In this document: positions 2,128-2,279 of the stretch, in pieces | Layout of the letters: each line of letters opens with the position of its first letter | Position numbering within the stretch: the stretch's first letter is position 1 | Source of the DNA: Dehalococcoidia bacterium | Lineage (GTDB): Bacteria; Chloroflexota; Dehalococcoidia; Dehalococcoidales; JAUWZL01 | Length of the DNA: 7,855 nt | Assembly: GCA_030615305.1 (NCBI GenBank) | Contig: JAUWZL010000031.1 | Coordinates: forward strand, 1 to 7,855 | Direction of reading: 5' to 3' | The notes under the pieces: generated by a model | Databases searched by the model: none | Told to the model about the DNA's origin: nothing | Seen by the model: the letters and a program-made list of their open reading frames with translations, nothing else | Position numbers and translations under genes: made by a program

Positions 2128-2154
2128 AAAAAATCCTCCCGCCTGGGAGGATTT
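2128..2154 (-). terminator. Intrinsic terminator of the aroF attenuator (segments 3:4)
   Basis: Read on the minus strand, AAATCCTCCC and GGGAGGATTT form a perfect 10-bp stem with an AGGC tetraloop (stem 2131-2154). The descending arm runs into a T-run (six T at 2128-2133, three in the stem). The orientation fits transcription toward aroF, whose start codon is 60 nt further on. A terminator in this direction inside a gene's own leader implies attenuation. On the plus strand the stem is not followed by a T-run. Confidence 0.85.
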
Positions 2155-2206
2155 ACAATTTATTACTGATTATCTAATTCAAACCTTCATATTAATACCC
2201 CCAGGC
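2141..2206 (-). promoter_or_regulatory. Antiterminator pairing (segments 2:3) of the aroF attenuator
   Basis: On the minus strand, segment 2 (2206 down to 2194, GCCTGGGGGTATT) is complementary to segment 3 (2153 down to 2141, AATCCTCCCAGGC). Nine consecutive pairs include one G-U; one mismatch follows, then three A-U pairs. Segment 3 includes the ascending arm and loop of the terminator, so 2:3 and 3:4 cannot coexist. Segment 2 overlaps the last codons of the leader ORF. A ribosome at the leader stop codon would therefore cover it, while one stalled at the aromatic codons would leave it free. The pairing is read from the sequence; its regulatory effect is inference. Confidence 0.75.
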
Positions 2207-2279
2207 GCGGCCGATGCCGCCAGGAAAATGTAAAATATGTGTAATAATTTAGTCCACTAGGGTCAATATTAAGTAACAT
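2187..2279 (-). CDS. Aromatic-rich leader peptide of the aroF-aroB operon (30 aa)
   Basis: An unannotated-size ORF runs from an ATG at 2279-2277 to a TGA at 2189-2187, about 20 nt after the predicted transcription start and 118 nt before aroF. Codons 12-20 read YYTYFTFSW: three Tyr, two Phe and one Trp in nine codons, covering all three aromatic end-products of the pathway. Aromatic residues occur nowhere else in the peptide. The C-terminal part is Arg-rich because it overlaps the GC-rich hairpin, which suggests that the RNA rather than the peptide is under selection there. The Shine-Dalgarno is weak (a purine-rich GAGAGACGG about 8 nt upstream). An in-frame TTG two codons earlier could also serve as start. 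By analogy with trp, phe and his leader peptides it would be a cis-acting ribosome-stalling sensor with no function as a protein. Expression has not been shown. Confidence 0.75.
   Translation of the reverse strand: MLLNIDPSGLNYYTYFTFSWRHRPRLGVLI
2201..2224 (-). promoter_or_regulatory. GC-rich leader hairpin (segments 1:2) of the aroF attenuator
   Basis: On the minus strand, GCGGC (2220-2216) pairs with GCCGC (2211-2207) around an ATCG loop. A longer register with a two-base bulge and one U-U mismatch extends the helix to CC (2224-2223) with GG (2202-2201). It begins at the Trp codon (2222-2220) of the leader ORF and sequesters the 5' half of segment 2. It would act as the anti-antiterminator, and possibly as the pause hairpin that couples ribosome and polymerase. 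Confidence 0.65.

Follow-up and report, generated by a model that had tools for sequence, protein, structure and literature searches.

We report here that the aroF-aroB operon of a Dehalococcoidia bacterium is very probably controlled by a ribosome-mediated transcription attenuator of the trp/phe-leader kind. The window, which is the whole stretch of 7,855 nucleotides that we analyzed, carries on its minus strand the classical order of promoter, leader ORF, 1:2, 2:3 and 3:4 pairings, and aroF-aroB (Table 1). ORFs on the plus strand resemble, as we take it, ribosomal-protein and fusA genes. An earlier note, made from the letters of this DNA, had described three mutually exclusive pairings before aroF-aroB. 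All three can be read directly in the window; the observation is confirmed, and the interpretation given to it is supported up to the limit of sequence evidence. The evidence computed here comprises the ORF, three mutually exclusive pairings, the conservation and co-variation of these in relatives, and the geometry of the leader.

Table 1. Features of the leader region and of the operon that follows it in the window
Feature	Position	Strand	Description
Sigma-70-like promoter	2335-2306	-	TTGACA-18-TATATT, TG ahead of the -10; 11 of 12 consensus bases
Leader peptide ORF	2279-2187	-	ATG, 30 codons, MLLNIDPSGLNYYTYFTFSWRHRPRLGVLI, contains NYYTYFTFSW
Regulatory codons	2246-2220	-	codons 12-20: Tyr Tyr Thr Tyr Phe Thr Phe Ser Trp; 6 of 9 aromatic
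Segment 1 (5' arm of 1:2)	2221-2216	-	family register 2221-2218 with 2207-2204, plus 2216-2208
Segment 2 (3' arm of 1:2, 5' arm of antiterminator)	2208-2194	-	
Leader stop codon TGA	2189-2187	-	
Intrinsic terminator 3:4	2154-2125	-	perfect 10-bp stem 2154-2131, loop AGGC, T-run
Segment 3 (3' arm of antiterminator; 5' arm and loop of terminator)	2153-2140	-	
aroF-type DAHP synthase (3-deoxy-7-phosphoheptulonate synthase)	2068-992	-	358 aa; starts 62 nt after the terminator
aroB, 3-dehydroquinate synthase	991-2	-	incomplete, cut by the window end

The aroF product scores above the cut-offs of NF006421 (436.1 bits, cut-off 335) and TIGR01361 (312 bits, cut-off 267.75), and the aroB product above that of TIGR01357 (369.7 bits, cut-off 305). 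From the promoter, transcription is predicted to start at about 2299; stretches of the TTGACA...TATA-like kind, read by eye, are also present in many related upstream regions. The Trp codon at 2222-2220 overlaps segment 1, and the C-terminal part of the leader peptide is encoded by segment 2. The terminator, described earlier as a perfect 10-bp stem with a T-run, folds at -15.6 kcal/mol (2154-2131) and was recovered by a terminator scan too, and the TGA stop stands where it had been placed. The nine plus three pairs counted before for the antiterminator are right and can be extended by one, the pair 2207-2140, which takes one base of segment 4. In total, 2207-2198 pair with 2149-2140 (ten consecutive pairs, one of them G-U) and, after a mismatch, 2196-2194 pair with 2153-2151, at an energy of -22.1 kcal/mol. 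The GC hairpin reported at 2201-2224 exists and can take two registers, which is the one substantial change to the earlier reading, as the coordinates given there stand: GCGGC/GCCGC (2220-2216 with 2211-2207) is the best single-sequence fold, and a second register, GGCG/CGCC (2221-2218 with 2207-2204), is the one that relatives keep. Because the GGCG/CGCC register overlaps segment 2, the pairings 1:2 and 2:3 are mutually exclusive.

Enterobacterial trp and phe leaders combine an ORF rich in regulatory codons with 1:2, 2:3 and 3:4 pairings and a terminator. The window shares with the trp-leader kind clustered end-product codons in a short ORF, exclusive pairings and a terminator with a T-run before the first gene, and, given the known size of a ribosome footprint, its stop and regulatory codons are spaced such that a ribosome is placed on segment 2 or segment 1. 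The start site, ribosome stalling, termination and the response to amino acids are predicted from sequence as follows. RNA polymerase would start near 2299, with a ribosome trailing on the leader ORF. With charged Phe-, Tyr- and Trp-tRNA in plentiful supply, the ribosome would reach the stop codon and cover segment 2; segment 3 would then pair with segment 4, and transcription would stop near 2128-2125. Under scarcity of an aromatic amino acid, the ribosome would stall at the aromatic codons and cover segment 1, leaving segment 2 free to take segment 3, so that no terminator would form and aroF-aroB would be transcribed. In the absence of translation, 1:2 would form, 3:4 would stay free, and termination would ensue. 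By the spacing of the codons and the stop, a ribosome awaiting Trp- or Phe-tRNA at 2228-2220 should sit on segment 1 and free segment 2, and a ribosome at the stop codon should sit on segment 2. The earlier proposal that a stall on aromatic codons masks segment 1 would hold for these Phe and Trp codons but not for the first Tyr pair (2246-2241), which lies too far upstream and should leave segment 1 free; a lack of Phe or Trp is therefore expected to act more strongly than a lack of Tyr. We infer that the Phe and Trp codons near 2228-2220 count most in this species.

The nearest DAHP synthases are encoded in Dehalococcoidia/Dehalococcoidales MAGs and are up to 85% identical to that of the window, in agreement with the placement in Chloroflexota suggested before. 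Every one of the 25 Dehalococcoidia loci in which the aroF start is complete (L001-L024 and L031; L030, without the aroF start, was left out) has an aromatic-rich ORF upstream. Across the order to which G001 belongs, DAHP-synthase matches were obtained in 137 of 156 genomes and fall into two main kinds, which are 66-85% and 43-49% identical to the DAHP synthase of the window. For the first kind, an aromatic-rich ORF (at least four aromatics in 10 residues) is present in 93 of 94 distinct upstream regions, and a terminator-like hairpin follows within 110 nt of the ORF in 92 of the 93 distinct ORF-bearing regions. Counted over leader rows, one duplicate included, such hairpins occur in 93 of 94 rows vs 7 of 282 shuffles, and a stricter ORF rule (at least five aromatics, ATG start) still retains 91 of the 94 rows, one row being a duplicate. 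The exceptions are L171 (G141:C33:1498-2158), where a second DAHP synthase copy of the same kind, 66% identical to that of the window, has an upstream region without the leader, and L093, where the leader is present and the hairpin was not accepted by the terminator scan. Left out were L171 as a second copy, incomplete or unfetched aroF matches in G082, G132 and G049:C129, and duplicate upstream regions save one (L142 = L019), which is counted among the 94 rows and in the aromatic-count, swap, geometry and nearest-pair tests. Upstream of the second DAHP-synthase kind, an aromatic leader ORF was found in none of the 10 readable regions; 9 of the 18 fetched regions of this kind, in which tblastn did not locate the start, were left out. 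At ilvB and hisG loci, 0 of 35 regions upstream of long ORFs contain an aromatic ORF at a threshold of five, and 3 of 35 at a threshold of four.

The aromatic codons of the 94 rows comprise TAT (238), TAC (155), TTT (190), TTC (55) and TGG (104). The leaders have no single peptide sequence in common; what they keep is a content of aromatic codons whose distance to segment 2 varies little. Over 93 leader rows, the median distance from the start of the last aromatic codon to segment 2 is 15 nt (quartiles 13-19), and that from the end of segment 2 to the stop codon is 8 nt (quartiles 4-11); these medians bear out the earlier statement that the geometry fits the classical model. DAHP synthases 59-61% identical to that of the window are also encoded in four Bathyarchaeota MAGs and one uncultured archaeon (L025-L029), where no ATG leader of the aroF kind was found in the 256-420 nt upstream.

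Compensatory changes in homologous leaders, the absence of which the earlier note had named as grounds for rejecting its reading, are present for both 1:2 and 2:3. In a swap test on the 93 rows with a terminator, the pairing of each segment 2 with its own segment 3 has a mean energy of -20.3, vs -17.4 (sd 0.27) for permuted partners (z about -10.6), and none of 5000 permutations was as good as the own partners. In a second test, 46 disjoint nearest pairs were formed on word content outside the tested segments and not on a tree; the own 2:3 pairing was better in 28, the swapped pairing in six, and 12 were ties (sign test p 0.0002). The 2:3 energy falls short of beating all 30 mononucleotide shuffles in 17 of the 93 rows. 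Pair counts were made on 41 leaders picked by eye as alignable from 86 reference leaders (listed after leaving out eight rows), a choice by which the counts lean towards order. On these 41 leaders, 2:3 is 88.9% paired vs 83.8% in shuffles, with 29 cells changed on both sides vs 12.2, and 1:2 is 93.3% paired vs 87.4%, with 12 double-changed cells vs 2.5. For both pairings, the percentage paired, the double-changed cells and the covariation scores were reached by 0 of 500 shuffles; for 2:3, two of the five pair measures (pairs with a double change and number of pair types) are no higher than in the shuffles. The clearest 2:3 columns lie in the terminator loop, where one column pair reads T-A in 15 leaders, G-C in nine, C-G in six, T-G in two and unpaired in nine, and another T-A in 22, C-G in 10, T-G in four and unpaired in five. 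On a tree of 28 aroF proteins, from which 13 of the 41 leaders were left out (short loci), single-column tests of coupled change stayed below significance, with too few independent pairs. The pairing 3:4 was left out of the column-by-column count because its register shifts by one base between leaders. A three-way case is seen in 11 leaders in which segment 3 reads CCCTCTCAAGC and segment 4 reads AGAGGG: segment 2 has the matching A in five of them (L113, L118, L141, L144 and L190) and keeps G, forming a G-U pair, in six (L100, L105, L108, L110, L112 and L124). These 11 leaders may be one clade and may therefore represent few independent events. With about 90 conserved leaders, the family offers a set for studying coupled change in three RNA segments.

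A constitutive intrinsic terminator next to a short ORF translated for some other purpose, for example as a trans-acting peptide, would involve no amino-acid sensing. We consider this highly improbable. A leader peptide acting in trans is documented for peTrpL of Sinorhizobium, according to the accessible part of PMC7298713, but the leaders studied here keep aromatic codons at a steady distance from segment 2 instead of one peptide sequence. A terminator by itself would not require 2:3 pairing, yet 2:3 and 1:2 co-vary, and the identity of the codons shifts with the downstream gene, which argues against a reading without sensing.

T-boxes bind tRNA directly. A metabolite- or tRNA-binding leader, that is a riboswitch or a T-box, which overlaps a short ORF by chance has in its favor that T-boxes occur in the same group: upstream of trpE, a T-box scores above the Rfam gathering score in eight of the nine loci given (L282 is without one). 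In 1900-2600 of the window, however, no match to a riboswitch or to the T-box family (RF00230) was obtained even at E up to 5, no Rfam family scored at its threshold, and no aptamer-like conserved block outside the segments was seen by eye in the 41-row alignment. The sole match better than E 0.1 in 1900-2600 was to Phe_leader (RF01859), at 31.7 bits and E 0.0027 against a gathering score of 55. The chances of a riboswitch or T-box thus appear very slim.

Translation- or Rho-coupled polarity, in which the leader ORF does no more than protect the transcript against Rho and the hairpins play no part, is scarcely tenable: leader translation near the transcription start could in principle act in this way, with nothing specific to point to here, but the window has a perfect terminator with a T-run, terminator-like hairpins recur in the leader rows far beyond the shuffles, and the exclusive pairings co-vary. 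A chance arrangement in a single sequence has a negligible probability, for although dinucleotide shuffling of the upstream 420 nt produced an ATG ORF with at least six aromatics in 10 residues 15 times in 2000, and shuffling of the segment-2 region matched the 2:3 energy of -22.1 in 5 of 2000 cases, so that the features of the window, taken one by one, are only moderately improbable, conservation of the ORF in relatives decides the matter.

The attenuator favored here is of a known kind. With enterobacterial trp and phe leaders it shares a leader ORF with regulatory codons, the 1:2/2:3/3:4 pairings, an intrinsic terminator, their order and their spacing, and its agreement with Phe_leader RF01859 is best on the terminator; it differs in its mixed Tyr, Phe and Trp codons, its gene and its phylum. 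Control of aroF by a leader has itself been proposed before. In Corynebacterium glutamicum, a leader peptide with Phe-Tyr-Phe and a predicted attenuator precede aroF (cg1129), as described in the accessible part of PMC4046766; by this description the arrangement before the DAHP synthase is alike, but it is that of an Actinobacterium, and only three aromatic codons are mentioned there. In Acholeplasma, uORFC-13-1 upstream of aroF is a uORF beside a terminator that has been proposed to read Phe (PMC8632094, accessible part); going by that description it differs from the leader of the window in its 24 representatives with at least one Phe codon and in another base-paired substructure, and Chloroflexi does not occur in the text as far as it was available. 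For E. coli aroF, attenuation has been hypothesized, as cited in the available portions of PMC8632094 and PMC2659441. That attenuators are best documented in Proteobacteria and Actinobacteria, as the earlier note held, agrees with what could be consulted of a 2010 survey (PMC2965389), a portion that does not mention Chloroflexi. A literature search with partial coverage, including few subscription journals, gave among the matches listed no leader-peptide attenuation in Chloroflexi, Dehalococcoides or Chloroflexota. Leader-type control of aroF has thus been proposed in other lineages, and for Chloroflexota we found no case described. As far as searched, the lineage, the gene set and the coexistence with T-boxes are new.

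Three T-boxes, two of them for trp genes, were reported for Dehalococcoides in 2008 (PMC2494555, accessible part). From what was available on it, the trpE T-box is alike in being a sensor of tRNA charging in the same lineage and pathway; it differs from the aroF leader of the window in having no leader peptide and sits upstream of trpE in relatives. Two sensors of tRNA charging are thus predicted to split one pathway in the same genomes, with trpE read by a T-box and aroF by a leader peptide. The finding would extend a textbook ribosome-read attenuator to a mostly uncultured lineage for which the literature that we found showed T-boxes only.

A covariance model (R1) was built from the 41 aligned leaders and run, under strict filters, on a sample of 393 genomes of the class and 400 of the phylum; it matched 67 and 23 of them, respectively. 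Because the only phylum match beyond the class matches is marginal (G593, E 0.005), the R1-type form looks confined to Dehalococcoidia. Beyond the aroF leaders already read, 40 R1 places were obtained, and the next gene was read at 20 of these with NCBIfam. It is a DAHP synthase at L242-L245, L251 and L260, in genomes without an entry in the order-wide DAHP-synthase search; a hisC-type aminotransferase above cut-off at L224, L227 and L241; an AMP-forming acyl-CoA ligase below curated cut-offs at L223, L230, L234, L235 and L250; a CoA transferase at L225; a double-cubane/dehydratase-like protein at L226; a molybdopterin oxidoreductase at L237; and another aminotransferase at L248. The next gene has no profile match at L222 and L261, and L222 precedes an octopine-dehydrogenase-like gene and a TrpX-like transporter (below cut-off; L264). 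The ORF scan recovered no ORF of any kind at L244 and none of the aromatic leader kind at L248, and two ORF scans give differing results for L228 and L231. In L260 (G489:C86:5232-5362), the usual terminator core CCTCCC/GGGAGG is replaced by CCCCTTCTGGACACACCAGAAGGG, and segment 2 (TGTGTCTGGGAGGG) still pairs with the replaced core.

Clusters around L225 and L226 (L266-L268) contain an R1-type leader, a CoA transferase, a 2-hydroxyacyl-CoA dehydratase, an activase and a GlcD-like oxidase, the latter three read in the parallel cluster L267, and resemble an aryl-lactate pathway. One of these genomes, G016 (L268), had no DAHP-synthase match in the order-wide search. The ligase operon of G030 comprises a LIV-type ABC transporter and a PaaK-like ligase (below cut-off), and G001, G322 and G398 have the same order of look-alike ORFs, judged by first residues only. 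The leader L250 (G322:C5:49744-49878) has the Phe run NFFFFFFFS before an AMP-forming acyl-CoA ligase (profile) in an operon with a LIV-type ABC transporter look-alike, and L255 (G398:C3:351456-351584) reads NFSFFFSFFTF before an acyl-CoA ligase (by look) and a LIV-type look-alike operon. In G322 the leader of the DAHP synthase (L251) is mixed (SWYFFGFWF), whereas that of the ligase operon is the Phe run of L250; the regulatory codons follow the downstream product. With no more than two or three aromatics in 10 residues, several ligase-operon leaders (L230, L232, L233, L236, L238, L239 and L240) are less certain in their specificity. Of 17 genomes searched for the alpha subunit of indolepyruvate oxidoreductase, eight have a match no more than 5 kb from such a leader (G001, partial; G030, G031, G032, G060, G061, G076 and G322); in a ninth, G144, the match near the leader is a fragment of 49 positions. 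At G030:C1:868722-870806, and likewise in G031 and G032, the ligase-operon leader lies about 160 nt from a divergent indolepyruvate ferredoxin oxidoreductase alpha gene. We take G030-G032 to be Dehalococcoides because of their 20-27 reductive-dehalogenase matches (20 in G030).

Dehalococcoidia are a group of sediment and groundwater, and the Dehalococcoides group is used to clean up chlorinated solvents. A route from arylacetates is known from methanogens. We tentatively propose, as a possibility somewhat short of even, that Dehalococcoidia, organohalide-respiring genomes included, have a multi-operon aromatic regulon governed by leader-peptide attenuators beside the trp T-boxes. It would include aroF, an aromatic aminotransferase, the TrpX-like transporter, the 2-hydroxyacyl-CoA dehydratase cluster and an arylacetate uptake/aryl-CoA ligase operon, often near indolepyruvate ferredoxin oxidoreductase, whose Phe-run leaders (e.g. 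L250) may mark the conversion of phenylacetate to phenylalanine by reductive carboxylation, induced by a shortage of Phe. A literature search on the arylacetate route gave no relevant paper among the matches listed. Leader codons could in this way help to assign gene functions: Phe-rich leaders give a hint of what the otherwise unassigned operon of acyl/aryl-CoA ligase and ABC transporter acts on, that of G030 included.

Leader peptides of trpE, ilvB and hisG were sought on both strands of 24, 25 and 25 loci, respectively, to about 1.5 kb upstream, as a terminator combined with clusters of Trp, Leu/Ile/Val, His or aromatic codons, and no plausible leader was found. The candidates L286, L300, L332 and L304 were rejected; they are scattered, none is ATG-started, and their position or peptide is implausible. 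At hisG, two hisG-family matches lie about 735 bp apart inside one frame of about 470 codons in L331 (G030:C1:774428-775747) and in 18 further genomes, as if HisG had been duplicated in tandem within one protein.
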